DNA of 64,000 bases, taken from contig CAINCU010000028.1 in assembly GCA_903847155.1 (NCBI GenBank), positions 62,001 to 126,000 on the forward strand. Reading direction: 5' to 3'. The notes under the pieces were generated by a model. That model worked only from the letters and a program-made list of their open reading frames with translations. It was not told the DNA's origin and made no database searches. This stretch comes from an uncultured Gallionellaceae bacterium (lineage in GTDB: Bacteria; Pseudomonadota; Gammaproteobacteria; Burkholderiales; Gallionellaceae). Each line of letters opens with the position of its first letter. Positions within the stretch are counted from its first letter, which is position 1. The position numbers and the translations under genes were made by a program. Positions 16,700-57,123 of the stretch are shown here, piece after piece.

Positions 16700-16778
16700 G
16701 AGATGCCCGTCAATAGGCAATCTCCATCAAGCGCATGTTGCAGATCGCCTATTGACGGGCGTTTGCGAGAGGTTCGAT
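16700..16778 (-). repeat. Palindromic dispersed repeat, copy 1
   Basis: Exact 14-bp inverted arms GCCCGTCAATAGGC (16705-16718) and its complement (16747-16760), with partly complementary flanks, so a long hairpin can form. It shares the core and flanks such as GGTTCG/GGTTG with seven other copies in the window. It lies upstream of thiD, in a region without large genes. Confidence 0.85.
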
Positions 16779-16902
16779 TTTGAAATCCGCTGCGCAGGCG
16801 CAAAGCCGTCACGCAGCAGCAAAGTATATAGGCCGCTTGGCATATTGACGGCAGCAGGGATGGCGGATAGGGTGCGCAGCAGCAAATTGCGAAAGGGACG
16901 GC

Positions 16903-17010
16903 ATGAGAACAGGACTTGGCAACTTGGCGATTTTGCTAGGCGCAATAGGGATTCCGTTTGGCGCTGCGGCTGCGCCGGAAAACAATCCGAGCCTGACCCC
17001 TTTTTTTTGA
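16903..17010 (+). CDS. Tiny secreted-peptide ORF or truncated gene start (35 aa)
   Basis: An ATG at 16903 with a good AAGGG ribosome site five bases upstream begins a 35-residue frame. Residues 1-24 look like a signal peptide (Arg at position 2, hydrophobic LAILLGAIGIPFG, cleavage motif AAAA before PE). The last codons, CTGACCCC and a T run, match the GGGGTCAGGCTCG-type repeat, which suggests that repeat DNA cut off a longer exported protein. Whether it is translated is unknown. Upstream, a 12-codon frame (16659-16697) also has a strong AGGAG site. Confidence 0.3.
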   Translation: MRTGLGNLAILLGAIGIPFGAAAAPENNPSLTPFF

Positions 17011-17051
17011 ACCTTTTGCCAGTAACTGCAAAAAAATAACGTGGGTAGAGC

Positions 17052-17210
17052 ATGAAAAAAATTTATATTTATTCAATAGGGGGCATATTACTTGGACTTG
17101 TTTATGCGCCTGTTAAATCTGCCTTAGACGGAGGGTGGTGGTTTGTGGGTGTGGCGATAATTTATATTCTAATTTTTCGATTTGTCTCTGAACGATTTGG
17201 TAAACCATAG
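17052..17210 (+). CDS. Small hydrophobic membrane protein (52 aa)
   Basis: A 52-residue frame begins MKKIYIYSIGGILLGLVYAP and ends SERFGKP. It has two hydrophobic segments (about 4-20 and 29-46) joined by a loop with DGGWW, consistent with a two-helix inner-membrane hairpin with basic ends. The base composition is clearly more AT-rich than its neighbours. The ribosome site is weak. It lies alone in repeat-rich DNA between thiD and ksgA. No family recognised. Confidence 0.5.
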   Translation: MKKIYIYSIGGILLGLVYAPVKSALDGGWWFVGVAIIYILIFRFVSERFGKP

Positions 17211-17267
17211 CCCGGTAGGGCAATAACCTACGGGCATCGCGCCGCATGTGTGATGCCTAAACATTTG

Positions 17268-17292
17268 GTGCAATGCGCTACGCTTATTGCAC
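17268..17292. repeat. GTGCAAT inverted repeat
   Basis: GTGCAAT (17268-17274) and ATTGCAC (17286-17292) flank GCGCTACGCTT. This resembles a widespread proteobacterial intergenic element, and related pieces occur near 57085 and 57715. Confidence 0.5.
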
Positions 17293-17316
17293 GAATTCAA
17301 AATCTCATCGCTTGAA

Positions 17317-17377
17317 CATGCCCGTCAATAGGCGATCTGCACGCAGTGCCTGATGCAGATGGCCGTGTTTACTGGCC
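17317..17377 (+). repeat. Palindromic dispersed repeat, copy 2, overlapping the ksgA stop
   Basis: The core GCCCGTCAATAGGC (17320-17333) is followed by GATCTGCA and, after a 12-base loop, TGCAGAT, then GGCCGTGTTTACTGGCC. The TTTA of the repeat's conserved distal end supplies the ksgA stop codon (17369-17371 on the minus strand). Confidence 0.8.
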
Positions 17378-18163
17378 TGCGGGCAAGGCGGGTTTGTCCT
17401 GAAGGTAGTTGGCGATGCACGCGAATTCGGCCACGCCCAGATTCTCGGCGCGCAATTGGGCATTGATGCCAAGCTGCTCGAATTCGCTTTCATTCAGATA
17501 GGGTTTGAGCGTGTTGCGCAAGGTCTTGCGCCGCTGACCGAATGCCGCTGACACGATTTTGGCAAACAGCGTTTCGTTCTTCACCACGATCTTCTCGGCA
17601 GGCAGCGGGATCATGCGCACGATGGCGGAATCAACTTTGGGTGCGGGGCGGAATGATTGCGGCGGCACATCGAGCAACTTTTCCATGTAGAAACGGTATT
17701 GCAGCATCACCGACAAACGACCGTATTCCGGGGTGGAGGGCGCGGCCACCATACGTTCCACCACTTCGTTTTGCAGCATGAAATGCATGTCGGTGATGTG
17801 CGTCGCGTAAGCGGCGAAATGAAACAGCAGCGGCGAGGAAATGTTGTAGGGCAGGTTGCCGACGATGCGCAGCGGTGTGGGAAGTTCGGCCAGATCGAAC
17901 TTCAGTGCGTCACCTTCATGAATGACGATCTTGTCCTGCGGATAGTCGGTCTTCAGCCGCGCGATGATGTCGCGGTCGATCTCCACCACATGCAGCTTGT
18001 TTAACAGCTTCAACAGCGGGCGTGTCAGCGCGCCCAGGCCGGGGCCGATCTCCACCATGGTGTCGTTGGCCTCGGGGCGAATGGCACGCACGATGTCGGC
18101 GATGATCTGTTCATCGACCAGAAAATTCTGGCCGAACATTTTTTTGGCTTTATGCCCGCTCAT
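17369..18163 (-). CDS. ksgA: 16S rRNA dimethyladenosine transferase KsgA
   Basis: 264 residues, SAM-dependent dimethylation of A1518/A1519 near the 3' end of 16S rRNA. Motifs: [10 protein letters not shown] at the N-terminus, [11 protein letters not shown] (SAM motif I), VEIDRD, catalytic [12 protein letters not shown] and the [13 protein letters not shown] region. The ATG overlaps the pdxA stop (ATGA), giving the classic lptD-surA-pdxA-ksgA order. The final residues overlap a dispersed repeat. Confidence 0.97.
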
Positions 18164-19158
18164 GCGGAAGCCCGGTCAAACAGTTTTTCGTGTTGCGCCA
18201 TTGCCATCGCCGCCTTGATCGCTTCCAGCAAGCTGCCGACATTGGCCTTGCCTGTACCCGCTAGTTCCAGCGCGGTGCCGTGATCGACCGAGGTGCGGAT
18301 GATGGGCATGCCCAGCGTGATGTTTACGCCTTCGCCGAAGCTGGCGTGTTTCAGCACGGGCAAGCCTTGGTCATGGTACATGGTGAGCACCGCATCGCAT
18401 TCGCGCAGCCTATGCGCGGCGAATAAAGTATCAGCCGGAATCGGCGCGCTCACCTGCATGCCTTCGGCGCGCAGCTTGTCCAGCACCGGGATCATCACGT
18501 CGATCTCTTCGCGTCCCAGATGGCCGCCTTCGCCTGCGTGCGGGTTGAGCCCGGCAACCAGAATGCGCGGCTGCGCGATGCCGAAGCGGCGTTGCAAATC
18601 TCGCTGCATGATGCGCAGCACGCTTTCCAGCAACGGCGCGGTAATGGCATCCGCCACTTCGCGCAACGCCAGATGCGTGGTCGCCAGTGCCACGCGCATG
18701 CCTCCGCCAACCAGCATCATCACCACCTGCGGCGTGTGCGTCTGCTCGGCCAGAAATTCGGTGTGTCCGGTGAAGGGAATGCCCGCATCGTTGATGATGC
18801 CCTTATGCACGGGCGCGGTGACCATGCCGGCGAACTCGCCCGACTGGCAACCTTGCGCGGCGCGGGTAAGCAGTTGCAACACATATTGACTGTTCGTGGG
18901 ATTCAGCTGACCGGCCTGGACGGCAGCTAGTACTGGAATATGCATCACTTGCAGATGCCCTATTGACGGGGCTTTACAGCCGATGGTGTAGTCGTGCAAT
19001 TGCACATGCAGGCCGAGTTGCGCGGCACGTTGCTGCAACAGCAACTTGTCGGCCAGCACCACCAGCGGTTGCTCAAACTCGTATTGCGCAAGTTGCAGGC
19101 AGAGGTCTGGGCCAATCCCTGACGGCTCGCCGGAGGTGATGACCAGCGGACGTGACAT
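18160..19158 (-). CDS. pdxA: 4-hydroxythreonine-4-phosphate dehydrogenase
   Basis: 332 residues, NAD-dependent enzyme of pyridoxal phosphate synthesis. [38 protein letters not shown] and [10 protein letters not shown] (metal-binding His and substrate loop) are present. ATG 19158 overlaps the surA stop by one base; GTG 19161 is the alternative. Residues 63-70 (APSIGHLQ) are encoded by a stretch almost identical to the palindromic dispersed repeat. Confidence 0.96.
18941..18979 (-). repeat. Palindromic dispersed repeat, copy 3 (partial, inside pdxA)
   Basis: Read on the minus strand, GCCCCGTCAATAGGGCATCTGCAA differs from the family core plus GATCTGCAA only by one inserted C and a G/C swap. It is in frame and encodes APSIGHLQ in a variable surface region of PdxA. 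The distal half of the element is absent. Confidence 0.6.
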
Positions 19159-20450
19159 CACTTGTCTGTATTGCGATATTCGATGAAAGCGCGGTCGCGC
19201 AGTTGGCGCAGCCAGTCTTCAAAGGCTTCGTCGGACTTGAAGCTGCGGATGGAGTTGCGCGCGCGCTGGCGTTTCTGCTCCACCGTCACATCGGTATTGC
19301 GCCGCTCCAGCACTTGTATCAGATGCCAGCCAAAGCTGGACTGCACCAATCCGCTCACTTGCCCGACTTTCAGCGCATCCATCGCGCCCTCGAATTCCGG
19401 CACGGTTTCTCCCGGCGACAGCCAGCCCAGATCGCCGCCTTGGGAGGCACTGCCATCCTCGGAATACAGCCGCGCCTGTTCGGCGAAATCCGCCCCTTTA
19501 TCGATGCGCTGCTTGATCTCCTGCAAGCGCTTCTTGGCCTCGCTTTCGGAAACCAGTTCGCTGGTCTTGATCAGAATGTGGCGCGCATGCGTCTGCACGA
19601 TCACCACCGGCGTATCCTTGCTGCGCCGGTCAATCAGTTTGAGGATGTGAAAGCCGCTGGGGCTGCGCAGGATATCGCTCACCTCGCCCGGCTTCATCTT
19701 TTGCAGGGGCTCGGCGAACAAAGGCGGCAACCGATCCGCCGGGCGCCACCCCAAATCGCCACCATTGAGCGCGTCTTGCGCATCGGAAAATCCTGCCGCA
19801 ACCTGCGCGAACGGCGCGCCCGCGCGTAATTTTTCCAGCGCCTGCTCGGCGCGTTTGCGATAAGTCTGAATTTTGTCCGAACTGGCCTGTTCCGGCACCA
19901 CCACCAGAATATGTGCGAGCTGCAATTCCTCGCCATGACCTTCCTGGAGTTCCTGATTGCTCAGGTAATTATCGACATCGTTTTCACTGATGACCAGCTT
20001 GCTATCGACTTCGCGTTCACGCAGACGCACGGAGATAATCTCGTTGCGGATCTCCTCGCGAAATTTTTTGTAATCGATACCATCTTTTTCCAGCTTTGCG
20101 CGGAATGCGACAACCGAGTCAAATTTATTTTGCTGCGCAATTCGACCCAACGCCTTTTCCAATTGTGCATCGTCCACCCTCAGACCGCTTTCTTTGGCGA
20201 ATTGAGTTTGCAGTATCTCGGTAATCATTCGCTCCAGCACCTGCTTTTCCAAAACTTTCTTGTCTGGCAACAAAGTGCCTTGCTTTTGCAGCTGCTTTTC
20301 GACAGTGGCCATGCGCTGTTGGAGTTCTAGTTGGGTGATGACATCGTCATTTACCACGACGAGGATGCGATCAAGCGTAACGGGCTCTGCCGCCACAGCA
20401 GAAAAAGGCAAACAGCACAGCAGCAAAGCGCAAAACCATTTAATTAGCAT
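19158..20450 (-). CDS. surA: Periplasmic chaperone / peptidyl-prolyl isomerase SurA
   Basis: 430 residues. Signal peptide (cleavage after AVAA, about residue 21), N-terminal chaperone domain ([16 protein letters not shown]...), two parvulin domains (about 175-275 with [11 protein letters not shown] and GGDLGWRP; about 285-385 with THARHILIK and [11 protein letters not shown]) and a short C-terminal helix. It escorts outer-membrane proteins, including LptD, which is encoded just upstream. 12 bp separate it from lptD. Confidence 0.97.
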
Positions 20451-20462
20451 ATCTTTTCCAGA

Positions 20463-22682
20463 TTATTTCAAGCCTTGAACAGGTTGTTCAACTGGCAGGT
20501 CGTTCAATTTAGTGTAGCCGGAGACGCTGTTGCGTAAGGCGGTCAGCGGATCGATGCCAATGCTGACCAGATTGTTCAGTTCCAGCTGGACGAATATTCC
20601 GGTGGTTCTATCCTGCGTCGCAGTGGTAAAACTTTGTGCCACCATACGTAACGTCCAGCAGCCACCATTATACTCAAGCCCGCCCAACGCTTCCAAAATG
20701 CGGTTGTCTTGCAACGAGTAATTGAAGCGCCCCACGCCATGCCAGCGCCCGGAGATCGGCCATTGCGAGGAAATATCCATTTGCCGTAACGTGTTGCGCG
20801 TGTAGCGATAGCCCAGATTGAGCAACTTGCCTGCTTCAGGGTTATAGCGTGCCGCCACGCTATAAGCTTCGGTTTGTACCTGGTTCGGATTGTATTGCAC
20901 GAGACTATCCAGACTCCAGGCGCGCGTCATCTTGCCGCCTATCATCAACAAAATATCGGAGCGGCTGTTGCTGTCGGCTGTCGCCCCAGGCAAAGTCACC
21001 TGGGGCGCTTGGAAACTGAACTGTTGCGCCAGCCCCACACGCAATCTTTCGGTTCCGTCCGCATCATCTATCGCGCGCGAAGTCAGCGCCAGCGTCAGCA
21101 TGTCGGCATCGCCCACTCGGTCACTGCCCAGAAATCGATTCTCGGTAAACATTTGACTGAAACTGAAAGGCGCCTGAGCCGTATCGAAAATTGGGATGTT
21201 ATTTTGATCACGGTATGGAATGCGCACGTAATAAGCGCGCGGCTCCAGCGTCTGCATATAGCTGTTACCGAGGATCAAGTTGTTACGCTCGAACACCATT
21301 CCGCCATCCAGACTAAAAATCGGTAAGGTACGCGTACTATTCGGCAAATCAGCGGAGTTATTGCTGTCCAGCGCATAGCTGGTGTAGTGGGTACCCAGCT
21401 TGGGAGTTAAAAAATATCCGGGCTCATTCAATAACGGATAGCTGAACGAAGGATAAATCACCAGACGTTGTCCGTTAACCTGTGAGGGATGGCGGAAATC
21501 CACATACTCGCTGCTCAACGCCAGCGTGCCGTCAGCCAGCGGATGATGCGCGTTCAGACTGAGCTGTGGCTGGCTGCGGTACGGCTCCACAACCGGCGCC
21601 AGCGGGTCCTGCAAAGTCTGGTAGCGCTGTACCCGTGCTGAAGCATTCACCGATTCGCTGGTATAGGTAGCAACACCTTCGCGTAATAAATTCGTCTGCG
21701 AAGTCACACTTACCGAGTCAGACAAATCGCGAAAATAGGCATCGTCTGAAACGCGTGTCATGTTCAGTGATGCGCCGAATCCATTGCCCAAATTCTGGCT
21801 ATGTTTTAAAGAAAAGAGCGAGCGATCCGTCCCGCTTACCCGGTCGCCGGACAGCATATCCAGATGCAGTTCGCCGCCATATTGCGGCTCCAGATAACGG
21901 AACTCATTATTTAGCTGCGTGCCGCGCTTGCTGATGAAACGCGGGGAGAAAGTCGCATCCATGTTGGGCGAAATGCTCCAATAATAGGGTATGGTAATCT
22001 CGGCACCGCCCGAGTTGGTGCTGCCGGGAGTCGGCCCCAGAAAGCCGGAACGGTTGCCACTGCCTAAGGGGAAGTCCATCCACGGCGTGTACAGCAGGGG
22101 TACACCCTTGAACTCGACCAGCGTGTTGTACGCCACACCGACCTGCGTATTCCGGTCGATTTCCAGTCGGCTCATCTTCATCAGCCAATCATCATTGCCA
22201 ATCGGACAGGTGGTATAGGTTGCATGCTCGAAGGTGTAGTTCTTTTTGCCCTCGATATTTACCGTAGTCGCACTGCCGCGCGAGTGGTTTTCACTAAACT
22301 GGTACTCCGGCTGCGTCATCACGCCCAGATTGGTGTCCAGATTGAGCTTTAATGTGGGGCCGCGCACAAACGAGCCACTTTGATCAATTGTTACATTACC
22401 TTCGGCCACCACGTTTTTGCTGTCCTGGTCGTAGCGCAAATAATCGGCACTGATAACTTGGTTGTCCTGACGCAACTCGACATTGCCATTTGCTTCAAGC
22501 TGCCCGCCTTGCTTGGCTTCCACTCGTTGCGCACTGATAAAAGCCACCGGGCGCTCCTCCGTGGCAGAAAGTCTTTTAAAGGTGCGATCCAGTTTAAGCG
22601 GCAGCGGCTCATCCTCGGCATGGCCCAATGAGGGCAGCACGACAAGAAGGCAGAGAGTGACAAAACGCGGATGAAAAAGCAT
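20463..22682 (-). CDS. lptD: LPS-assembly outer-membrane protein LptD
   Basis: 739 residues. Signal peptide ending near GHAED, N-terminal OstA/LptA-like beta-jellyroll (about 45-170, ISAQRVEAKQGGQLEANGNVEL), then the large beta-barrel. Cysteines in the TTCPIGNDDW and YNGGCWTLR segments are candidates for the disulfides needed for assembly. It inserts LPS into the outer leaflet with LptE. First gene of the minus-strand unit and divergent from amgK. No good ribosome site is visible before the ATG. Confidence 0.96.
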   Translation of the reverse strand: MLFHPRFVTLCLLVVLPSLGHAEDEPLPLKLDRTFKRLSATEERPVAFISAQRVEAKQGGQLEANGNVELRQDNQVISADYLRYDQDSKNVVAEGNVTIDQSGSFVRGPTLKLNLDTNLGVMTQPEYQFSENHSRGSATTVNIEGKKNYTFEHATYTTCPIGNDDWLMKMSRLEIDRNTQVGVAYNTLVEFKGVPLLYTPWMDFPLGSGNRSGFLGPTPGSTNSGGAEITIPYYWSISPNMDATFSPRFISKRGTQLNNEFRYLEPQYGGELHLDMLSGDRVSGTDRSLFSLKHSQNLGNGFGASLNMTRVSDDAYFRDLSDSVSVTSQTNLLREGVATYTSESVNASARVQRYQTLQDPLAPVVEPYRSQPQLSLNAHHPLADGTLALSSEYVDFRHPSQVNGQRLVIYPSFSYPLLNEPGYFLTPKLGTHYTSYALDSNNSADLPNSTRTLPIFSLDGGMVFERNNLILGNSYMQTLEPRAYYVRIPYRDQNNIPIFDTAQAPFSFSQMFTENRFLGSDRVGDADMLTLALTSRAIDDADGTERLRVGLAQQFSFQAPQVTLPGATADSNSRSDILLMIGGKMTRAWSLDSLVQYNPNQVQTEAYSVAARYNPEAGKLLNLGYRYTRNTLRQMDISSQWPISGRWHGVGRFNYSLQDNRILEALGGLEYNGGCWTLRMVAQSFTTATQDRTTGIFVQLELNNLVSIGIDPLTALRNSVSGYTKLNDLPVEQPVQGLK

Positions 22683-22704
22683 GAGAGGTTCAGTTAAATT
22701 AAGA

Positions 22705-22713
22705 TGCTAAAAT
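22705..22713 (+). promoter_or_regulatory. Candidate extended -10 for amgK
   Basis: TG-C-TAAAAT forms an extended -10, 28 bp before the amgK ATG, in the 59-bp divergent lptD-amgK spacer. No clear -35. Confidence 0.3.
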
Positions 22714-22741
22714 CTCACAAAAACACCATTAAGGCAAACCG

Positions 22742-23737
22742 ATGCAACGCCAGAACCAGCTTTCCGCTTGGCTTTTCAGCCTGTACCCCAACCAAACCTT
22801 CACCCTCGCACCTGCTTCCGCCGATGCCAGCTTCCGCCGCTACTTCCGCGTCACCTTCGCTGATAGCACAACGCGCGTGGTGATGGACGCACCCACGCAA
22901 CATGAAGATTGCAAACCGTTTCTTCATGTCGGCCAACTGTTTGAAGCGGCAGGAACGCACGTGCCGCACGTGTATGCGCAAGACCTGACACAAGGTTTTT
23001 TACTGCTGTCTGATCTGGGTAACACCACCTATTTGCAAGCCTTGAAAGCAGACAACGCTCCACAACTTTATAGTGCGGCAACTGACGCGCTCATCAAGAT
23101 TCAACTTGCCACGCGCGAAAACGAATTGCCGCCTTATGACGAGGCGGTATTGCGCCGAGAACTCAATCTGTTTCCCGAGTGGTACATCTCCAAGCATCTG
23201 GGTGTGACACTTACCGCCAAACAGAGCAACTCCCTGGAAAGAGCATTTCAACGCATCCTTGCCAACAACCTCGCCCAGCCGCGAACATATGTGCACCGTG
23301 ACTATCACTCACGCAATCTCATGTTTACTGAACCTAACCCCGGCATCCTGGATTTTCAGGATGCGCTATTTGGCCCGATCACCTACGACCTTGCCTCGCT
23401 GTTCAAGGATGCCTATATCCGCTGGGAAGAAGAGGAGGTTATGGACTGGCTCATTCGTTATTGGGAGAAAGCACGTCAAGCCGGGCTGCCTGTCAGAGAA
23501 GATTTCGGCGAGTTCTACCGCGACTACGAAATGATAGGCGTACAGCGCCACATCAAAGTGCTGGGCATTTTTGCGCGTTTGTATCACCGCGACGGCAAGG
23601 ATGGTTACCTGAAAGACATGCCGCTGGTAATGGATTACTTGCGCCGCGCCTGCGAACGCTATATTGACCTCAAGCCACTGCTAAATCTGCTGAATGAGTT
23701 GGAGCCGCGTACGACACAAACGGGCTATTCGTTTTGA
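22742..23737 (+). CDS. amgK: Anomeric MurNAc/GlcNAc kinase AmgK (APH-fold)
   Basis: 331 residues with an aminoglycoside-phosphotransferase/choline-kinase fold: catalytic loop VHRDYHSRNLM (HxDxxxxN) near residue 187 and metal motif LDFQDALFGPITYDLASL. AAGG lies seven bases before the ATG. The kinase phosphorylates MurNAc at C1 so that MurU can make UDP-MurNAc, a recycling route that bypasses de novo synthesis. The adjacent murU strongly supports this over generic phosphotransferase names. Confidence 0.9.
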   Translation: MQRQNQLSAWLFSLYPNQTFTLAPASADASFRRYFRVTFADSTTRVVMDAPTQHEDCKPFLHVGQLFEAAGTHVPHVYAQDLTQGFLLLSDLGNTTYLQALKADNAPQLYSAATDALIKIQLATRENELPPYDEAVLRRELNLFPEWYISKHLGVTLTAKQSNSLERAFQRILANNLAQPRTYVHRDYHSRNLMFTEPNPGILDFQDALFGPITYDLASLFKDAYIRWEEEEVMDWLIRYWEKARQAGLPVREDFGEFYRDYEMIGVQRHIKVLGIFARLYHRDGKDGYLKDMPLVMDYLRRACERYIDLKPLLNLLNELEPRTTQTGYSF

Positions 23738-23790
23738 GCATGATGCTGCACATCTCTCTCACGCCACAGTTTTTATATGGCATGCCGCGG

Positions 23791-24608
<818 letters not shown>

Positions 24609-36572: not shown

Positions 36573-36600
36573 AGGGTGGGCACGCTGTTTTGCCCACCCT
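36573..36600. repeat. Hairpin element after trpB2
   Basis: AGGGTGGGCA (36573-36582) pairs with TGCCCACCCT (36591-36600) around an 8-base loop. No T tract follows, so it is better called a repeat/mRNA 3' stem than a classic terminator. A related stem lies at 56869-56891. Confidence 0.6.
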
Positions 36601-36604
36601 GCGC

Positions 36605-36680
36605 CAAGCCAATAGGCACGGGCATCTCCATCATGCGAAGTGTGCGGATCGCCTATTGACAGGCATCTTCAGAGGGTTGG
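36605..36680 (-). repeat. Palindromic dispersed repeat, copy 5
   Basis: In minus orientation: left end GCCAATAGGCACGGGCATCTCC, right end GATCGCCTATTGACAGGCATCTTC (split here as GATCGCC and TATTGACAGGC), followed by the family tail GGGTTGG. It is downstream of trpB2 and downstream of the convergent phosphoesterase gene. Confidence 0.8.
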
Positions 36681-36709
36681 CTAACTGGAAACCTCTGGCG
36701 CAGCAGTCA

Positions 36710-45548: not shown

Positions 45549-45673
45549 CGTCATTCCGGCGCAGGCCGGAATCCAGCAAAAAGATGCATCCCGCAAAGCG
45601 GACAAAACTGGATGTTGTATCGCTGCGCGGGTTTGTTTAATTAACTGGATTCCGGCCTGCGCCGGAATGACGG
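45549..45673. repeat. Inverted pair of CGTCATTCCGGCGCAGGCCGG elements
   Basis: Left arm about 45549-45576 and its complement about 45648-45673 bracket about 70 bp. Each arm also contains its own palindrome (CCGGCGCAGGCCGG). This is a common proteobacterial repeat. It fills the gap between the flavodoxin gene and pyrC. Confidence 0.85.
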
Positions 45674-47364: not shown

Positions 47365-47413
47365 GTAGGGTGCGCTTGCGCACCTTTTGCCATGGTGCGT
47401 AAACGCACCCTAC
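47365..47413. repeat. GTAGGGTGCGC inverted repeat after the NYN gene
   Basis: GTAGGGTGCGCTTGCGCACC and GGTGCGTAAACGCACCCTAC form a stem of about 18 bp; each half is itself palindromic. A common proteobacterial intergenic element. Confidence 0.8.
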
Positions 47414-47430
47414 TTGTTTCAGAACTGCCC

Positions 47431-47492
47431 GAAGATGCCCGTCAATAGGCGATCTGCAAGCAGCGATGGTTGAAGATGGCCGTATTCAGGGC
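47431..47492 (+). repeat. Palindromic dispersed repeat, copy 6
   Basis: GAAGATGCCCGTCAATAGGC followed by GATCTGCAAGCAG and, at the right end, GATGGCCGTATTCAGGGC. It is the closest relative of copy 2. Between it and the carbonic anhydrase gene is GGGGCCAGGCTCG...GGGGTCAGG DNA (47521-47580) of a type often found near REP/Y1-transposase elements; no transposase gene is present. Confidence 0.85.
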
Positions 47493-47612
47493 GTTACGAA
47501 GAAGGTAGCAAAATAGCAAAAGGGGCCAGGCTCGAATTGATTATGAAACTTCATATCAAGATGAACTATTGGGGTCAGGTTAAAATTAAACTTTCTAGCA
47601 CTAAAATTCATC

Positions 47613-48181: not shown

Positions 48182-48294
48182 CCGTTCGCCCTGAGCTTGT
48201 CGAAGGGCATGTGGTTCGACAGGCTGTGCGTGAGCTGTTGGGGCGAATGCCCCTTACAGCCACGGCCTACTCCTTGCGAGTACACCACGAACGG
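48182..48294. repeat. Inverted pair of CCGTTCGCCCTGAGCTTGTCGAAG elements
   Basis: The left copy is intact (48182-48208); an internal GGTTCGACAGGCTG and terminal CACGAACGG form a decayed opposite copy. It occupies most of the gap before the DUF2288 gene. Confidence 0.75.
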
Positions 48295-48338
48295 CACCAC
48301 AATTTTTGCACCAACACTAAATTGAAAGATTGTCGAAC

Positions 48339-48653
48339 ATGACAACAAGCAACCTTGAAGAAATCACCCGCACCAAAATCAATATGGAGACTTCGCGCAT
48401 CGCTTGGCGCGAGTTGCAGCGCTTCTTCGCCAACGGTACGGCAATCGTAGTGAGTGCCGAACTCGATCTGGTCGAAGTGGCGTACCAAATCTATGCAGAC
48501 AACCGCGCGCAGGTGAAGCGTTGGATGGAAGACGGAGTGGTCGCGCGCGTGTCGGATGAGCAGGCGCAGGCGTGGTACGAGGCGGACAGCATGGTGTGGG
48601 CGGTGGTGGTCAGCCCGTTCGTGCTGGTGCAAGCGGAGAAAAAGCTGCATTAG
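48339..48653 (+). CDS. DUF2288 protein
   Basis: 104 residues matching the DUF2288 pattern: TSRIAWRELQRFFANGTAIVVSAELDLVEVAYQIYADN and WYEADSMVWAVVVSPFVLVQ. Small, soluble, function unknown. A TTG nine bases upstream is in frame, but ATG 48339 is more likely. Confidence 0.85.
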   Translation: MTTSNLEEITRTKINMETSRIAWRELQRFFANGTAIVVSAELDLVEVAYQIYADNRAQVKRWMEDGVVARVSDEQAQAWYEADSMVWAVVVSPFVLVQAEKKLH

Positions 48654-48663
48654 AACTTGGCCG

Positions 48664-48735
48664 CAAGCCAATCAACACGGCATTCTCCATCAAGTGCATC
48701 GCGGAGATCGCCTATTGACGGGCATCTTCACGAGG
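48664..48735 (-). repeat. Palindromic dispersed repeat, copy 7
   Basis: Minus-strand copy: GCCAATCAACACGGCATTCTCC at the left and GATCGCCTATTGACGGGCATC (as GATCGCC plus TATTGACGGGC) at the right, with the family tail CACGAGGTTG. It lies between the convergent DUF2288 and PPK2 genes. Confidence 0.85.
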
Positions 48736-48743
48736 TTGTGTAT

Positions 48744-50237
48744 TCAGTCCTTGGGAATTTTCTTCATCGCCGTTTCGATGCGCTGACATAGCGTCTTCAA
48801 AATCTTGATGCGCGCAAAGTTCTTGTCGTTGGCTTCAACCAATGTCCACGGTGCGATCTCGGTGCTGGTTCTATCCACCATGTCGCACACGGCGCGCTCG
48901 TAGTCATCCCATTTCTCGCGGTTGCGCCAATCTTCTTCGGTGATCTTGAAACGCTTGAAGCCGATCTTTTCGCGCTCCTTGAAGCGGCGCAGTTGTTCTT
49001 CCTTGGTGATCGCCAACCAGCATTTCACCAGCACGATGTTGCTGTCCACCAGTTGCTGTTCGAAGTCGTTGATCTCGCGGTAGGCGCGCATCCAGTCCGC
49101 TTCCGAGCAATATTTTTCCACGCGTTCGACCAGCACACGTCCGTACCAGGTGCGGTCGAAAATATTGAAGTGGCCGGTGTGCGGGACGTAGCGCCAGAAG
49201 CGCCATAGATAAGGTTGTGCGCGCTCTTCCTCGGTGGGCGCGGCGACCGGAATGATGTGGTAATAGCGCGCATCGAGCGCACCGGTGATGCGACGAATCG
49301 CTCCGCCTTTGCCGCCCGCGTCCGAACCTTCGAATGCGGCGATGACCGACATTTTGCGGAAGCGCGGATCGCGCGTGAGCAGATTGAGTTTGCCTTGGTA
49401 TTTCTCCAGCTCGGCATTGAATTTCTTCTTGTCGAGCTTCTGCGCCATGTTCAATTTGTCGAGCACATTGAGATGGTCGATCGGCTCATGCAGCGGCGCG
49501 ACATCCTTCGCGGAAGGTTTGTTTGCACTGTCGATGCGTTTGCGCAGCGCTTCCAGCAATATCTTGCCCACGGTCAGGTTGCGGTAGCGTGTATCTGCGC
49601 CTTCCACCACGATCCACGGCGCTTCGGCGGTGCTGGTTTCGCGCAAGGCATGTTCCGATACTTTGCGGAATTTGTCGTAACTTTTGAAACGTTGCCAATC
49701 CAGCTTGGTCACGCGCCAGCGCGTCTTGGGGTTTTTCTCCAGCGACTTCAGGCGTTTTTCCTGAGCGTCTTTGGACAAGTGAAACCAGAATTTGATGATT
49801 AGCGTGCCTTCATCGGTCAGCATCTTTTCAAAGTGATTGATCTGTTCGATGCTCTGATTGAGCATCGCCGCGCTGGTTTGTTTCAGCACACGCCGCACGA
49901 TGGGCGCGGTGTACCAGGAGCCGAAGAACACGCCGATTTTGCCTTTGGGCGGCAACGCGCGCCAGAAGCGCCACATCGGCGGATGCCGTTGTTCCTCGTC
50001 GGTTTTTTCACCCATGGCATGCGCCTGAATAAAACGCGGATCCATCCACTCGTTGAGCAGGTTCACCGTCTCACCCTTGCCTGCGCCATCCACGCCGCCC
50101 GCCAGAATGATCACAGGAAATTTGCCTTTCTGCGACAGATCGAATTGCGCATTGAGCAACGCTTCGCGCAACGTGGGCACTTCCTTGTCGTAAGTGGCTT
50201 TGTCTATCTTGTGTCCGAGTTCGGCAGATTCAAACAT
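48744..50237 (-). CDS. pap: Two-domain PPK2: polyphosphate:AMP phosphotransferase
   Basis: 497 residues with two PPK2 modules. N-terminal P-loop GGVDGAGKGE near residue 50, C-terminal P-loop EGSDAGGKGGAIRR near residue 320; lid arginines follow each (FFGSWYTAPIVRR; FDRTWYGRVLVER). Tandem PPK2 proteins phosphorylate AMP to ADP with polyphosphate. AAGGAG five bases before ATG 50237. It sits 18 bp downstream of sixA and near ppk1, forming a polyphosphate group. Confidence 0.92.
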   Translation of the reverse strand: MFESAELGHKIDKATYDKEVPTLREALLNAQFDLSQKGKFPVIILAGGVDGAGKGETVNLLNEWMDPRFIQAHAMGEKTDEEQRHPPMWRFWRALPPKGKIGVFFGSWYTAPIVRRVLKQTSAAMLNQSIEQINHFEKMLTDEGTLIIKFWFHLSKDAQEKRLKSLEKNPKTRWRVTKLDWQRFKSYDKFRKVSEHALRETSTAEAPWIVVEGADTRYRNLTVGKILLEALRKRIDSANKPSAKDVAPLHEPIDHLNVLDKLNMAQKLDKKKFNAELEKYQGKLNLLTRDPRFRKMSVIAAFEGSDAGGKGGAIRRITGALDARYYHIIPVAAPTEEERAQPYLWRFWRYVPHTGHFNIFDRTWYGRVLVERVEKYCSEADWMRAYREINDFEQQLVDSNIVLVKCWLAITKEEQLRRFKEREKIGFKRFKITEEDWRNREKWDDYERAVCDMVDRTSTEIAPWTLVEANDKNFARIKILKTLCQRIETAMKKIPKD

Positions 50238-50707: not shown

Positions 50708-50742
50708 TTCCTCCCCCATTTATTACACTATCGGGCGTCAGG

Positions 50743-50755: not shown

Positions 50756-50789
50756 ACTGTTTTTACCACATTCACTTTTGGAGACAGAC

Positions 50790-51131
50790 ATGGACGATTC
50801 TACCCCGCTCAAACCCGCTGCGAAAAAGACTGCTGCTGCATCCAAGCCCGCCAAGGCCAAGGCCGCTGCCAAACCGGCGAAGAAGTTGAAAAAAGAAAAG
50901 AAGGAAAACGGCAAGGTCAAAGTGGTGCGCGACAGCTTCACCATGCCGCAGGCGGATTACGATCTGATCGCGGAGCTCAAGCTGAAGGCGTTGAACACCG
51001 GACTGCACGTGAAGAAAAGCGAGCTGTTGCGCATAAGCTTGCAGGCTTTATCCAAACTGACCGAAGCGCAACTCAAGAAAGCGGTCTCGGGCTTGGAAAA
51101 AATCAAGACCGGACGGCCAAAGAAAGACTAA
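50790..51131 (+). CDS. Lys/Ala-rich histone-like protein with RHH-like C-terminus
   Basis: 113 residues. Residues about 8-42 are Lys/Ala/Pro-rich (AAKKTAAASKPAKAKAAAKP), like the tail of histone H1-type bacterial proteins. Residues about 47-85 (DSFTMPQADYDLIAELKLKALNTG, KKSELLRISLQAL) look like strand-helix-helix of a ribbon-helix-helix domain. DNA binding is inferred. GGAG six bases before ATG. Its last 4 bp overlap the convergent ppk1 stop. Confidence 0.75.
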   Translation: MDDSTPLKPAAKKTAAASKPAKAKAAAKPAKKLKKEKKENGKVKVVRDSFTMPQADYDLIAELKLKALNTGLHVKKSELLRISLQALSKLTEAQLKKAVSGLEKIKTGRPKKD

Positions 51132-53215
51132 CTCTCGGCAGCCACGAACGGCTGCCCGAGTTCCTGCAGCAGAGTCGTTTGCGCGCAAACTTCTGCACCG
51201 CGACCGGGTGTCTTGCGGTGCCAGAAGCCGTTGCAGTCCATCTCCCACGCCTGTTTGTTGTCTTTCAGGTAAATCTTCAACCCTTCGTCGATCACGCGTT
51301 TTTTCAGTTTGGCATCAAGCAGCGGAAAGCAGGCTTCGATGCGGCGGAAGAAGTTTCTATCCATCCAGTCTGCACTGGATAGATACACATCGTTCGCCGT
51401 GTCGTTGCGGAAATAGAAGATGCGCGTGTGTTCAAGGAACCGCCCGATTATGGAGCGCACGTGAATATTCTCGGACAATCCGGCGACGCCGGGACGCAGA
51501 GCGCACACGCCGCGCACGATCAGGTCTATCTTCACTCCGGCCTGCGAAGCTTCATACAGCGCGGTGATGATTTCCGGCTCCAGCAGCGCGTTCATCTTGG
51601 CGATGATTTGCGCGCGCTTGCCTTCCTTGGCCAGTCTGGTTTCGTTGCGTATGGCTTGCAGCACGTTGGCATGCAAGGTGAACGGCGATTGCCACAAGTG
51701 TTTTAACTTGCTGGCCTTGCCCAGACCGGTGAGTTGCGTGAACACTGCGTTTACATCTGAACACACTTCTTCGTTGCTGGTGAACATGCCGAAATCGGTA
51801 TAAAGCTTGGCGGTGCGCGGGTGATAGTTACCCGTGGCGAGATGCACATAACGCCGCAGTTTGCCGTCTTCGCGTCGCACCACCATCAGCATCTTGGCGT
51901 GGGTCTTGTGTGCGACCACGCCGTACACCACATGCGCGCCCACTCCTTCCAATCGCCCTGCCCAGTTGATGTTGGCCTCTTCGTCGAAGCGCGCCAGCAG
52001 TTCCACCACCACGGTCACCTCCTTGCCGCCGCGTGCCGCGTTGATAAGCGCTTCCATCAATTCCGAATCGGTACCTGTGCGATATACCGTCTGCTTGATG
52101 GCCACCACATTGGGATCAGCGGCGGCTTGCTGGATGAAATCGATTACCGGCTTGAACGACTGGTAAGGATGGTGCAGCAGCACGTCGTTCTTGCGCAGCA
52201 CCTTGAACATGTCCTCGCCTTTTTTTTGCAGCAAGAGCGGCATGCCGGGCACAAAGAGCGGGAATTTAAGGTCGTCGCGCGCCACCTGGTCGGGGATGCG
52301 CATCAGGCGCACCAGATTCACCGGTCCTTTGACCTTGAACAGATCTTCCGCCTTCAACTCGAATTGCTGCAACAGAAATTCGGACATGGCTTGCGGGCAG
52401 TTTTCAGCGACTTCCAGACGCACGGCATCGCCAAAATGGCGCTGCGGCAATTCACCCTGCAGGCTGACGCGCAGGTTCTTCATTTCCTCTTCATCCACGA
52501 ACAGGTCGCTGTTGCGCGTGACGCGGAACTGGTAACAACCCAGCACCTCCATGCCAGAGAACAACTCACCGACGTGCGCGTGCAAGATGGAAGAAAGAAA
52601 CACGAAGCCATGCGGGCAGCCGGAGACTTCGGGTGGCACCGGGATGGCGCGCGGCAACAAACGCGGTGCCTGCACGATGGCCTTGGCGGAATTGCGCCCG
52701 AAGGCATCCTTGCCTTGCAGCTCGACAGCGAAATTCAAACTCTTGTTAAGTACGCGCGGGAATGGATGCGCCGGATCAAGCCCGATCGGCGTGAGCACCG
52801 GCATCACCTCGCGCATGAAGAAATCCTTGACCCAGATTTGCTGCGCCTCGTTCCAATGCGTGCGGCGCAAAAACTTGATGCCTTGCGCAGCGAGTGCGGG
52901 AACCAGTTCTTCGTTGAACAACTGATATTGCCGCGCAATGAGTTGGTGCGTCGGCGCGTACAGACGCTTGAGGATTTGCGTGGCCTCCAGCCCGTCCGGG
53001 CCGGTGGCGAGTCCGCCCAGCTTGGCCTGCTCTTTCAACCCGGCGACGCGAATCTCGAAGAACTCATCCAGGTTGCTGCTGACAATGCACAGATATTTCA
53101 AGCGTTCCAGCAAAGGAACCGTGGCGTCTTCCGCCTGGGCAAGCACACGGCGGTTGAACTCCAACAAGCCGAGTTCGCGGTTTAGAAAATTCTGCGCGGG
53201 ATAAGTTTTGGCCAA
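51128..53215 (-). CDS. ppk1: Polyphosphate kinase 1
   Basis: 695 residues, full length. N-terminal NRELGLLEFNRRVL and SNLDEFFEIRVAGL, ATP-binding DPAHPFPRVLNKSLNFA, the catalytic His in VHLATGNYHPRTAKLYTDFG and the C-terminal phospholipase-D-like domain with VRGVCALRPGV and YLSSADWMDRN. It polymerises the gamma-phosphate of ATP into polyphosphate, the substrate of the PPK2 encoded 1 kb away. Confidence 0.97.
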   Translation of the reverse strand: MAKTYPAQNFLNRELGLLEFNRRVLAQAEDATVPLLERLKYLCIVSSNLDEFFEIRVAGLKEQAKLGGLATGPDGLEATQILKRLYAPTHQLIARQYQLFNEELVPALAAQGIKFLRRTHWNEAQQIWVKDFFMREVMPVLTPIGLDPAHPFPRVLNKSLNFAVELQGKDAFGRNSAKAIVQAPRLLPRAIPVPPEVSGCPHGFVFLSSILHAHVGELFSGMEVLGCYQFRVTRNSDLFVDEEEMKNLRVSLQGELPQRHFGDAVRLEVAENCPQAMSEFLLQQFELKAEDLFKVKGPVNLVRLMRIPDQVARDDLKFPLFVPGMPLLLQKKGEDMFKVLRKNDVLLHHPYQSFKPVIDFIQQAAADPNVVAIKQTVYRTGTDSELMEALINAARGGKEVTVVVELLARFDEEANINWAGRLEGVGAHVVYGVVAHKTHAKMLMVVRREDGKLRRYVHLATGNYHPRTAKLYTDFGMFTSNEEVCSDVNAVFTQLTGLGKASKLKHLWQSPFTLHANVLQAIRNETRLAKEGKRAQIIAKMNALLEPEIITALYEASQAGVKIDLIVRGVCALRPGVAGLSENIHVRSIIGRFLEHTRIFYFRNDTANDVYLSSADWMDRNFFRRIEACFPLLDAKLKKRVIDEGLKIYLKDNKQAWEMDCNGFWHRKTPGRGAEVCAQTTLLQELGQPFVAAES

Positions 53216-53230
53216 GGATTTTGCGTTACT

Positions 53231-53503
53231 TCAGTTTTTCGGCGGAACGTAGCCGTTGGGCATTTGTGTGCCTTCACCGAAGAAATAATTCTCCATCTGC
53301 TGCGCCAGATACTGGCGCGCCTTGATGTCGCCCAAATTGAGGCGGTTCTCGTTCACCAGCATAGTCTGGAATTTGATCCAGCCTTGCCACGCTTCTTTCG
53401 ACACGTTATCAAATATGCGCTGACCCAACGCACCCGGATAGGTTGGACGCTCCAGACCTTCCGCCTCTCGACCCAACTTCACACACTGCACCATTCTTGT
53501 CAT
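53231..53503 (-). CDS. yggX: Fe(II)/Fe-S trafficking protein YggX
   Basis: 90 residues. [24 protein letters not shown] carries the single conserved Cys7; [22 protein letters not shown] and the C-terminal YFFGEG follow. It protects Fe-S proteins from oxidation. GGAG before ATG 53503 fixes the start; upstream in-frame codons are not conserved-looking. Confidence 0.96.
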
Positions 53504-53564
53504 TTTATTCTCCACAACTAATTGATAATAGATGCGCAATATTACACGCAGATGAAACTGCCTT

Positions 53565-54896
53565 TTACTTCAAATTTTTCACAAACACCTTGGAGCGGCG
53601 CTGGTAGTTGTACAGCTCCTTTTTTTCCTTGGGCAGTTGATTGATGCCTGCCTCCTTGAATTCTCGTTCAATGAACCAGTGCGCGGTACGCGTGGTCAGC
53701 ACGAACAACTTCTGCATGCCCTGCGCCTTGGCGAGATTGCTCATGTGCATAAGAATCGCCTCGCCATAGCCCCGGTCGCGGCATTGCGCATCCACCGCCA
53801 GACAGGCCAGTTCAGCCGAATCCTCGTTCGGAAACGGATACAGCGCGGCACAACCCACGATGCGGTGGTCGTGTTCCAGCACTTCGAAACGCACGATCTC
53901 ACGCTCCAGCAATTCGCGCGAACGGCGCACCAGAATGCCCTCTTCTTCCAGTGGCCGCAGCAATTGCAGAATACCGCCCACGTCTTCGATAGTTGCCGCG
54001 CGCAATGTATTGAGCGTGGATTCCACCACCATGGTGCCGATGCCTTCGTCGCTGAACAATTCCTGCAACAGTGCGCCGTCGGTGTGGCGGCTGATGAGGT
54101 GCGTGCGCGCCACACCCGCCTCACAGGCACGGATCGCACACGGCAGGAACAACGCCACGTCATCCGGCAGTGCGCGTTTTTTATCGAGCACCGCCTGCGC
54201 CTGCGCAATGGTCAGCTCCTTGGCCAGCTTGCCCCTCTTTTCCTGCACGCCGTCGGTGTCCATCATGAACACCAGTTTGTCGGCATCCAGCGCGATGGCG
54301 GTGGCAGTGGCGATGTCTTCCAGCGTGAGGTTGAACACTTCACCCGTGGGCGAATAACCCAGCGGTGATAACAACACCACTTCGCCGAATTCCATGCGGT
54401 CGCGCAATGCCGCTACATCCACCTTGCGCACCCTGCCGGTATGTTGCAAATCCATACCGTTGATGATGCCGATGGGTTGCGCCGTAATGAAATTGCCGCC
54501 CGCCACGCGGATGTCGGCATTCGCCATCGGCGAATTCGCCAGCCCCATCGACAGCAGCGCCTCGATCTCCAGCCGCACGCGACCGACTGCTTCTTTCACG
54601 CATTGCAAGGCTTCGGCATCGGTCAGGCGTATGCCCTGATGAAACGTGCCCGCCAAGTCGTTGCGCGCCAGATGCTGCTCGATCTGCGGCCGCGCGCCAT
54701 GTACCAGCACCAGCCGGATGCCCAGCGCGGCGAGCAGATTGAAATCGTGCGTCAGCTCGACGAACTTACCATCCGCCACCACCTCGCCGCCGAACGCCAC
54801 CACAAACGTCTTGCCGCGAAAGGCGTTGATATACGGCGCAACGGAACGGAACCACGCAACGAAATCGGGCGAAGATCTAAGGGGGACGGCAGGCAT
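53565..54896 (-). CDS. argA: N-acetylglutamate synthase ArgA
   Basis: 443 residues: amino-acid-kinase domain (about 20-280, [26 protein letters not shown]) plus GNAT acetyltransferase domain (about 295-440, [18 protein letters not shown]), the classic ArgA fusion performing the first step of arginine synthesis. ATG 54896 has AAGGAG 13 bases upstream, a long spacing; a TTG at 54929 is in frame. Confidence 0.95.
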
Positions 54897-54949
54897 GGTG
54901 ATTGGATTACTCCTTGAATCGGTGGACAAGCCAAAGAATTGTTCGCAGC

Positions 54950-54955
54950 ATTATA
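54950..54955 (-). promoter_or_regulatory. Candidate -10 box for argA
   Basis: Perfect TATAAT on the minus strand, 54 bp before the argA ATG. No good -35. No clear ARG box was recognised in this 188-bp divergent gap. On the plus strand a TTGACA (about 55034) lies before the kinase gene without a matching -10. Confidence 0.35.
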
Positions 54956-55084
54956 TTTCAAATCACGAGCATGGACGGAACGAGAACACGCTGCGGATTT
55001 CCCTTCAGCGTTCGACAGCGCACAGAACTGTCTTTGACATTTACCTAGGATGAACTGGAGCATTGTCAGTCCGGAAAAATTTCC

Positions 55085-56092
55085 ATGAGCAAAGTCTATC
55101 TGGGTCGCCTGCCGCAGAGCGATCCTATGCACAACTATCTGCAACACAATATTCAGCCGCAGATCAGCGGCGATTCTGGCGATTCGACGTATCGCGTATT
55201 CGGGCTGAATGGCTCGAACGACGTGTATATGTACGAAGACCGCAATACCGGCAGCAAGGTCATCGGAAAATTTTTCCTCTCTGCGCGGAAGCGCAACGCG
55301 GACAAGGCGGCAACGCGCCTGACGCGCGAGTTCGACAATCTGTGCATGATGCGGAATTACGGGATGACCGGGCACCACCACGTGGTCAGGCCGCTTGGTC
55401 GCCACTATGCGATGAACGCGCTGCTGGTCACCGAATACAGCGACGGGCAACTACTCAGCGAAGTCATCACAGATGCGATCCGAAACGGCGACCACGGCAA
55501 ACTGTATTACAAGCTCACCGCACTTGCGTACTTCCTGTCATCCTTTCACAACCGCACCGCCAACGGCGAAGGTGTCGCATTCCACGAAGACTGCGACTAC
55601 ATGGATAGCCTGATAGACAAACTGCGCGAGCAATGGGCGACCGGCGGCGACGAGGCGCAGGAACTGTACTGGCTGCGCGACCAGTGGCGCAATCAGCCGC
55701 GCATGTGGCAAGACCAGCAGGTGATGGTGCATGGCGACGCGACACCGGAGAACTTCATGTTCGGCAATGGCCTGGAAGTCATCGCATTCGATCTGGAACG
55801 AGCCAAACGCGCAGATCGCATGTTCGACACGGGACGCATCGCCGGAGAACTGAAACATTTCTTCATGCGCGCCACCGGAGACAGGAATGCCGCCGACCCT
55901 TTCATCGGCCATTTTCTGTGGGAATATGCATGCCACTTTCCCGACCGCGAAAATGCCTTCCGAGCAATCACTGGCAGAGCGCCGTTTTACATTGGCATCA
56001 CGCTGCTACGCATCGCGCGCAACAGCTGGATTGACGCGGCCTACCGCCGCCGTCTCATCGACGAGGCGAAAGAATGCCTGAGGAGATTTTGA
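55085..56092 (+). CDS. APH-fold small-molecule kinase of unknown substrate
   Basis: 335 residues. An N-terminal lobe with a Gly-poor nucleotide strand (VYMYEDRNTGSKVIGKFF) precedes the catalytic loop VMVHGDATPENFMFG (HGDxxxxN) near residue 218 and the metal motif IAFDLERAKR, with a C-terminal helical region. All catalytic residues are kept. The adjacent gene is a HAD hydrolase one base apart, so a kinase/phosphatase pair acting on one metabolite is inferred. Not close enough to AmgK to share its role. Confidence 0.82.
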   Translation: MSKVYLGRLPQSDPMHNYLQHNIQPQISGDSGDSTYRVFGLNGSNDVYMYEDRNTGSKVIGKFFLSARKRNADKAATRLTREFDNLCMMRNYGMTGHHHVVRPLGRHYAMNALLVTEYSDGQLLSEVITDAIRNGDHGKLYYKLTALAYFLSSFHNRTANGEGVAFHEDCDYMDSLIDKLREQWATGGDEAQELYWLRDQWRNQPRMWQDQQVMVHGDATPENFMFGNGLEVIAFDLERAKRADRMFDTGRIAGELKHFFMRATGDRNAADPFIGHFLWEYACHFPDRENAFRAITGRAPFYIGITLLRIARNSWIDAAYRRRLIDEAKECLRRF

Positions 56093-56833
56093 ATGAGCAT
56101 CAAAGGCATTATTTTCGACATCAACGGCACGCTATCGGATATTCATACCAACGAATGGCACGACGATATTTATCGAGTGCTGAGCAATCTATTGTCATAT
56201 CAAGGCATATCGCTCGATGCAGATGCAGTGAAGAGTCTCTATTTCGAGTTTATGAAAAAGCAGCGCACAGCAAACGCTGATCGGCATCAGGAATTCGATG
56301 CTGTCGCCATCTTCCGCGACATCATCGCCCAACATGCCACCGACTTCACCCGCGCTTTACCGAAAGAAAAACTGCAACAACTTCCGCTCATTCTTGCCGA
56401 AACACACCGCGCCGCATCGCGCTTCCATTTGCATCTTTATCCCGGCGTGGCCGACACTATCCGCCAACTACAGCAGAAATATCACCTTGCCATCATTTCC
56501 GATGCGCAGTCCGCTTACGCGCTCGCAGAACTGCATGCCGTCGGACTCTCCGGTTATTTCGACCCCATCATCATCTCGGGCGACTACGGTTATCGCAAAC
56601 CAGAGTTACGCCTGTTCATCGCCGCCTTGAGCGCCATGAAAATGGACTCGACAGAAGTGGTCTTTGTGGGCAACGACATGTACCGCGACGTTTACGGCGC
56701 GCAAAGACTCAAAATGAAAACTGTCTTCTTCAAGTCCAACCAAGGCACGCAAGAAAAAGCGGGCGTGAAGCCCGACTACATCATCTACAATTTTCCGGAG
56801 TTGCTCAACGCGATCAGCTTTTTCGAGAAGTAG
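56093..56833 (+). CDS. HAD-superfamily hydrolase with D-x-N motif I
   Basis: 246 residues. HAD motif I is FDINGTLSD, where the usual second Asp (acid/base) is Asn; motif II ISDAQSA (Ser/Asp region), motif III Lys in YGYRKPE, motif IV VFVGNDMYRDVYGA. The helical cap at 20-110 places it with subfamily IA. The D-to-N change should weaken phosphatase activity, so binding or a different reaction is possible. The ATG directly follows the kinase stop. Confidence 0.85.
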   Translation: MSIKGIIFDINGTLSDIHTNEWHDDIYRVLSNLLSYQGISLDADAVKSLYFEFMKKQRTANADRHQEFDAVAIFRDIIAQHATDFTRALPKEKLQQLPLILAETHRAASRFHLHLYPGVADTIRQLQQKYHLAIISDAQSAYALAELHAVGLSGYFDPIIISGDYGYRKPELRLFIAALSAMKMDSTEVVFVGNDMYRDVYGAQRLKMKTVFFKSNQGTQEKAGVKPDYIIYNFPELLNAISFFEK

Positions 56834-56868
56834 TAAAGAAGGAAAAGGTATTCTGGCAGAGTCGTAAG

Positions 56869-56891
56869 GTGGGCACGTTTTATGTGCCCAC
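56869..56891. repeat. GTGGGCAC hairpin after the HAD gene
   Basis: GTGGGCAC (56869-56876) and GTGCCCAC (56884-56891) flank a 7-base loop. No T tract. Similar to the element after trpB2. Confidence 0.55.
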
Positions 56892-57062
56892 GCGATTAAC
56901 GATCCACAATCAACTAAAACGAAACAAGATATTTCAACCAAGCAGATTTACACAAACGTGGCACGCGAACGACTGTAGGTGCTTTGTGCGATGCAGCATC
57001 CGAGAGGTTGAGTTAGTTAATGCAACGCTCCCGATCTAATATTTTTATAGCTTCTCCGCAAG

Positions 57063-57123
57063 GAAATGCCCGTCATTAGGCACTCTGCAATGCTTATTGC
57101 ACGGAGACGCTCGTATCTATTGT
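57063..57123 (+). repeat. Palindromic dispersed repeat, copy 8 (diverged)
   Basis: AATGCCCGTCATTAGGCACTC at the left and GAGACGCTCGTATCTATTG at the right align with the family ends; the middle contains GCAATGCTTATTGCAC. Confidence 0.65.

Follow-up and report, generated by a model that had tools for sequence, protein, structure and literature searches.

ERIC-like and other miniature inverted-repeat transposable elements (MITEs) are imperfect palindromes of ~100-130 bp that lie in intergenic DNA. Repetitive extragenic palindromic (REP) elements are defined as palindromic units of 20-50 nt that are mostly intergenic and number more than 100 per genome (PMC8266576, PMC2817692). Further general traits of REPs are pairing in inverted orientation, a conserved hairpin stem and, ahead of the palindrome, a conserved tetranucleotide that is GTAG in most cases. 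One REP superfamily carries a GTAG tag next to the stem and includes REPtrons, which hold a REP-associated tyrosine transposase (RAYT) gene. The other, as described by Di Nocera et al. (PMC3733652), has an unpaired CGTC end, an 8-9 bp stem opening with A/T pairs, a 4-5 nt loop and a CCA-like tail, and is without a known mobilising enzyme; the same paper gives S. lithotrophicus, which we take to be a Sideroxydans, as CGTC-positive. Such REP families, for which no mobilising enzyme is known, present an open puzzle.

We analyzed a 64,000-nt stretch of an uncultured Gallionellaceae genome (GCA_903847155.1, contig CAINCU010000028.1, positions 62,001-126,000; the window, within genome G000) and found that a ~105-base repeat composed of two facing half-units, several copies of which lie in the window, occurs in hundreds of intergenic copies across three closely related iron-oxidising Sideroxydans species. 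With a probability of roughly 0.7, we regard the repeats as non-autonomous and their family as untagged and REP-like, with most copies left over from an amplification within one clade of Sideroxydans. Since the repeat is clade-restricted and abundant, with other sister genomes nearly free of it, it offers a good place to seek a mobilising enzyme, and it is suited to asking whether a sharply conserved core marks copying or use.

Distribution and anatomy of the repeat

The exact 12-base core of the repeat, GCCCGTCAATAGGC, occurs 168 times in the 3.08-Mb G000 genome (78 and 90 per strand), compared with a single occurrence of the reversed control. Among 60 relatives scanned, the sister Sideroxydans genomes G017 and G021 hold 117 and 223 exact cores, and the remaining 58 hold one to three (ten genomes) or none; named relatives with the repeat, among the matches listed, are Sideroxydans sp. 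STB_48 and Sideroxydans sp. DeMMO3_12. The count in the window alone is not significant: ten sites with up to three mismatches stand against a shuffle mean of 5.9, and ten were reached in 9 of 100 shuffles. A sequence-only model applied to 34 genomes, with 113 candidates scored per genome, gave strong matches in G000, G017 and G021 (whose counts are lower bounds, to be read as "at least"), weaker ones in nine other Sideroxydans (17 in G028, 10 in G024, 6 in G029, 5 in G013, 4 in G004, 3 in G023, 2 in G019 and one each in G011 and G003) and none in the other 22. Five remnant-bearing genomes rank directly behind G017 and G021 in similarity over the whole marker region, at 85-86% identity, in a comparison where some other genomes align only in parts. 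When 150 genomes of the order were scanned with stricter filters and 25 candidates per genome (counts for G000, G017 and G021 again being lower bounds), the model matched, besides G000, only G050 (once) and G104 (twice). An exact 18-mer of the repeat was also present, among the matches listed, in one Gallionellales genome, GWA2_60_142, with flanks similar to those of a G000 half-copy. An origin from a plasmid or phage mobile element was considered and rejected, as the family consensus matched neither plasmids nor phages; no exact 19-mer of the repeat was found in viral contigs.

Elements are 100-110 bp long, with conservation above background from ~28 bp before the core and gone by ~105 bp; 91 of 99 rows entered the full-length alignment, those left out being four variants from locus L190, the window row at 18898 and three others. 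An element usually joins an arm L, which holds the core (consensus roughly AACCTCGTGaAGATGCCCGTCAATAGGCGATCTnCA), to an arm R, its diverged partner (roughly TTGATGgAGATgGCCGTaTTTATTGGCTTGCGGGCAAGG), or else to a second L; arms L and R face each other, since the reverse complement of R aligns by eye with L. The ~36-nt L unit forms a small imperfect hairpin, GTGaAGATGCC-CGTCAATA-GGC(G)ATCTnCA, and the CGTC of the family sits within its 8-nt loop CGTCAATA. An earlier sequence-only reading of the window, which had proposed a palindromic REP-like family there, described a GATCTGC extension and a distal GCCGTGTTTATTGGC end; both are real, the first as the inner end of arm L and the second as part of arm R. 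Ahead of the stem is a CnTG that is conserved in part (C 87%, T 68%, G 86%) and may or may not act as a tag, and no GTAG tag appears in the column profile upstream of the core.

Separate L and R profiles run over 1.43 Mb of G000 and G021 identified 90 LR pairs, 22 LL pairs and no RR pair, together with 39 solo L and 13 solo R arms (112 pairs versus 52 lone arms). The stretches behind these counts, and behind the location, arm-R and site-occupancy counts given below, were partly selected for holding cores, so densities and counts are biased to intact copies, and we repeated the counts on core-blind runs (G000 contig C5 1-180000 and most of C28 1-246000, including the window; G021 contig C22 1-400000). 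These runs gave 38 LR, 9 LL, no RR, 16 solo L and 10 solo R (47 pairs versus 26 lone arms), with 37 elements each in G000 (424 kb) and G021 (400 kb), or about one per 11 kb. Loci L091-L177, picked by exact core, were used in the junction, flank and site-pair comparisons and were excluded from the location, arm-R, site-occupancy, pair and core-blind counts. Some solo arms have a plainly visible decayed partner, and many solo L arms, judged by eye, end right after GATCTnCA, the element centre. At places found by arm R alone, an L core matching at least 14 of 21 positions lay near the expected spacing in 75 of 78 cases (at least 18 of 21 in 64), compared with 6-11 core positions in control stretches 300 bp upstream, one of which ran off the end; on the core-blind runs the corresponding figures were 44 and 37 of 48. 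We also noted two small hairpins in G021 (locus L077, 18119-18150 and 19671-19718) that carry the family core in the loop (TGTAGATGCCC-GTCAATA-GGGCATCTACA) and flank one gene.

We file the repeat as untagged REP-like because it lacks the tags of both REP superfamilies and the target duplication expected of a MITE, while most general features of REPs are present: the ~36-nt palindromic unit, the 168 exact cores, the placement of only 4 of 115 elements inside open reading frames (ORFs), and the 90 LR and 22 LL head-to-head pairs. Like GTAG REPs and REPINs, it is a short hairpin unit of high copy number that lies in intergenic DNA and at gene 3´ ends, forms head-to-head dimers and occurs as singletons resembling broken dimers. 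Unlike them, it has no GTAG next to the stem, its loop is 8 nt long, one arm is strongly conserved and the other much less, and no repeat-flanked RAYT gene was seen in G000, with one flanked gene in G017. With the CGTC REPs, as characterized in PMC3733652, it shares the location pattern, the head-to-head dimers and the lack of a dedicated transposase, but its CGTC lies in the loop instead of forming an unpaired end tag, and it departs from the rules for stem, loop and tail. ERIC-like and other MITEs resemble it in size, imperfect palindromy and intergenic position (ERIC being set beside it by description, not by sequence), whereas the Sideroxydans repeat consists of separable half-units. No Rfam family reached threshold at the window copies, weak microRNA matches on copy 1 being due to its hairpin. 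Literature searches on Sideroxydans and Gallionellaceae palindromic repeats and on the core letters found no published description of the repeat; the core 12-mer was in none of the literature text matches listed, and 10-mers from the core do occur there. Within Rfam and the literature searched, the repeat is an untagged REP-like family that is so far unnamed, in agreement with the sequence-only reading on both counts.

Position relative to genes and site occupancy

The 115 elements located in 0.85 Mb of G000 and G021 comprise 68 in tandem, 36 in convergent and 5 in divergent gaps, with 4 inside ORFs and 2 at stretch ends. Divergent gaps are avoided (5 of 109 intergenic elements versus 17.7% of intergenic bases, p = 4e-5) and convergent gaps are favoured (36 of 109 versus 18.2%, p = 1.5e-4), and the median distance to neighbouring 3´ ends is 26 bp, compared with 119 bp to 5´ ends. 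Copies are located mainly at gene 3´ ends, a pattern that matches the one reported for REPs in general by Di Nocera et al. (PMC3733652). No orientation preference was detected in tandem gaps (36 same, 32 opposite), nor was LR orientation biased relative to the GC skew of the stretch (44 versus 36). A coding reading of the element was weighed by eye and dropped.

We compared sites between genomes in 38 element-to-genome rows drawn from 174 elements, some rows sharing an element or a site, and scored a site as occupied when an element lies between the matched flanks. G000 sites were occupied in 6 of 10 rows in G021, where one was empty and three were without an element, and in 0 of 8 rows in the more distant G028, where three were empty and five were without an element (in each genome one of the latter being a place in pdxA, discussed below). 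G021 sites were occupied in 7 of 8 rows in G000 and 1 of 8 in G028, and the weak G028 elements in 2 of 3 rows in G021, both of one site, and 0 of 1 in G000. Some occupied gaps are much shorter in relatives: the gap with copies 1 and 2 spans ~0.8 kb in the window genome versus ~27 bp in G024 and 22 bp in G028, and that of copy 4 spans ~200 bp versus 19 bp in G021 and 44 bp in G017. The simplest reading of this pattern is that most copies would have arisen in the common ancestor of G000 and G021 once it had separated from the G028 lineage, with some gain or loss thereafter. Several occupied-site pairs show no greater likeness than copies drawn at random, so a given gap may in some cases have gained elements independently.

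Proposed amplification, and possible mobilisation and use of the core

As we reconstruct it, non-autonomous LR or LL pairs would have multiplied chiefly in the ancestor of a single Sideroxydans clade, presumably through a copying enzyme supplied in trans; insertions would have persisted mostly at gene 3´ ends, where they would do least damage, and the copies would then have decayed in place. Several observations weigh against this account. No mobilising enzyme was identified for the repeat. Conservation of the core far exceeds that of the remaining element (86% identity at core positions versus 55% elsewhere in random family pairs), which plain decay would not predict unless the spreading copies shared the core. 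No clean single-insertion junction was readable at these divergences, and in four G000 and five G021 rows, the pdxA row aside, the relative has no element and a gap that is similar or longer, which shows absence and not insertion. No target-site duplication was found over the 91 elements at many offsets and lengths of 2-9; the best signal, three seen versus 0.14 expected, does not stand out when some 22,000 combinations are considered.

We would allow a small chance that the repeat represents a third class of REPs, one known by the loop-borne CGTCAATA instead of an end tag and copied by a non-RAYT enzyme that needs at least one L arm per pair. LR and LL pairs do occur, and no RR pair was observed.

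A RAYT- or TIRYT-driven REPIN, mobilised in trans by the tyrosine transposases of these genomes, is a doubtful alternative. G000 has five Y1_Tnp matches, four of them above the curated cut-off, and G021 and G017 have more. The core, at up to two mismatches, is absent from the fetched flanks of all five G000 matches, one of which lies at a contig end with only one flank visible, and the repeat-profile matches nearest to these genes are more than 1 kb away. The best hint of a RAYT is a 250-aa tyrosine transposase in G017 (locus L190 on C24, 1777-2529), which has family elements ~0.2 kb away on both sides; its downstream element has a variant core, and a stretch before the gene recurs after it. 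However, neither the G000 nor the G021 orthologue is flanked by elements on both sides, and orthologues 79-86% identical are present in G007, G009 and G012, species whose genomes have neither the core nor a model match. A few tyrosine transposase genes in G021 have an element within ~250 bp, on one side.

The sequence-only reading had taken GGGGTCAGG fragments beside two window copies as a hint of a RAYT driver elsewhere. These fragments fit the motif GGGGWSAS, which is reported at the ends of other tyrosine transposase (TIRYT) genes by Di Nocera et al. (PMC3733652). GGGGWSAS sites are also found near the ends of several of the Y1 genes above, which fits TIRYT ends and counts against these genes as drivers of the repeat. 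Association of GGGGWCAG with the repeat itself is weak, with 5 of 29 sites within 200 bp of an element versus 2.1 expected if uniform, and with no G000 Y1 gene flanked by the core a RAYT driver is not supported.

It is unlikely that the repeat is a MITE of a DDE-type insertion sequence, with the arms as its terminal inverted repeats. Copy 1, whose arms extend to ~52 nt with TTCAAAA-like ends, fits such a reading, as do weak ends of this type in the family, but duplications are lacking as described above, and many solo L halves stop at the element centre in the manner of REP singletons. Moreover, among 15 element pairs 250-2200 bp apart, which cover part of each genome, we noticed neither a transposase-like gene, judged from first residues, nor a parent insertion sequence with the same ends.

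A dispersed binding site for a chromosomal protein, with selection keeping the core at each site, has similarly little probability. If copying needs the core, copies that spread share it; if a protein uses the core, it is kept in place. Where arm R alone led to a place with a core (75 places), 19 of the 21 core positions are kept on average, and in the five best-matched site pairs the core differs at 7 of 105 positions compared with 63 of 324 in the rest (p = 0.001). This in-place comparison leans toward protein use of the core, although these five were selected with the data in view, and an exact core had served to pick loci in several of them. Across seven G000-G021 pairs, six of them from core-blind runs, the core was alike at 131 of 147 positions and the outer sequence at 282 of 449, a contrast little above that of random family pairs, and the closest other relatives have weak remnants only.

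With regard to folding, the palindrome described by the sequence-only reading holds for the consensus of the family and for LL copies, whereas most copies (LR) are weakly palindromic. Copy 1 has a fold z-score of -7.7; the median over the 91 full-length elements is -1.47 (32 below -2 and 13 below -4), compared with -0.17 for their flanks (11 of 91 below -2). RNAalifold found no consensus structure for the family. In the consensus dyad, 72.7% of cells are paired, versus 31-43% when slid and a shuffled mean of 72.6%, and in the small hairpin within arm L the values are 66.8%, 27-41% and 67.6%; compensatory base changes were found in neither. As pairing equals the shuffled expectation, the dyad is a property of the consensus, and individual copies diverge from it with no compensating changes. 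The sequence-only reading had held that few copies genome-wide, with no covariation, would speak against it: copies proved to be many (168 exact cores), and covariation was not found. A selected 3´ RNA element (mRNA stabiliser, attenuator or terminator), the first two being roles which that reading had named for REP elements in comparison, and which the short distances to 3´ ends and the good folding of a third of the copies would suit, is very improbable given the pairing at shuffled level, the missing covariation and consensus structure, and the lack of orientation preference.

Copies and other features in the window

The core is exact at 16705 (+), 16747 (-), 17320 (+), 47437 (+) and 48710 (-) of the window and has one mismatch at 23795 (+), 36651 (-) and 57068 (+). 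Seven of the eight copies first proposed are genuine. The partial copy at 18941 was rejected; it lies inside pdxA (PF04166), and the aligned stretch of G021 is of equal length, has no element and reads as similar coding sequence. Copy 1 (16680..16788, minus strand) is an LL pair with arms at 16681-16732 and 16733-16784. The exact 14-bp arms first ascribed to it turned out to be part of something longer: two 52-nt arms, 75% complementary, that abut at the centre with zero spacer. It lies ~140 bp upstream of a kinase gene (PF08543) and not past a 3´ end, and the matching site in G021 also holds an LL copy. The claim that most copies lie past gene 3´ ends fails for copy 1 and stands for the family and for the six other genuine window copies, which range from overlapping a 3´ end to ~207 bp from one.

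Among these six, all LR, copy 2 (17292..17400, plus strand) overlaps the 3´ end of a ksgA-like gene (PF00398), and copy 4 (23767..23875, plus strand) has an APH-family gene (3´ end 23737) on one side and a nucleotidyltransferase gene on the other; at neither site does G021 have an element. A small ORF called by the simple ORF caller made the surroundings of copy 4 convergent, whereas sequence and Pfam indicate a tandem neighbour. Copy 5 (36584..36692, minus strand) lies between convergent genes, and the matching sites of G017 and G021 hold copies. Copy 6 (47409..47517, plus strand) lies ~58 bp past an NYN-domain gene. Copy 7 (48643..48751, minus strand) lies between convergent ORFs, with PPK2 on one side, and its G021 site has the L half only. 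Copy 8 (57040..57148, plus strand), a degenerate LR, lies ~207 bp past a HAD-family gene.

Other repeats are also present. A head-to-head CGTC-type REP pair at 45549-45673 (CGTCATTCCGGCGCAGGCCGGAATCCAG and its inverse) belongs to that known superfamily and is of another kind than the present repeat; its relatives number dozens in G017 and G021, and G024 and G028 have further ones. Further dispersed repeats lie at 17209-17292, with copies in G021 and G024, and at 48210-48296, with at least three copies in G024 at 88-93% identity. In 400 kb of G028, counting 12-mers de novo gave none above seven copies. G021 looks rich in short repeats, with other abundant 12-mers in loci L071-L090 (385 kb) such as ATTCGCACCTAC (39 times) and CCCGCAGGCGGG (31 times). 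Elsewhere in the window, Rfam RF02837 (anti-hemB) matched 13118-13206 on the plus strand with 57.1 bits, beside the hemB gene at 12033-13040 on the minus strand.

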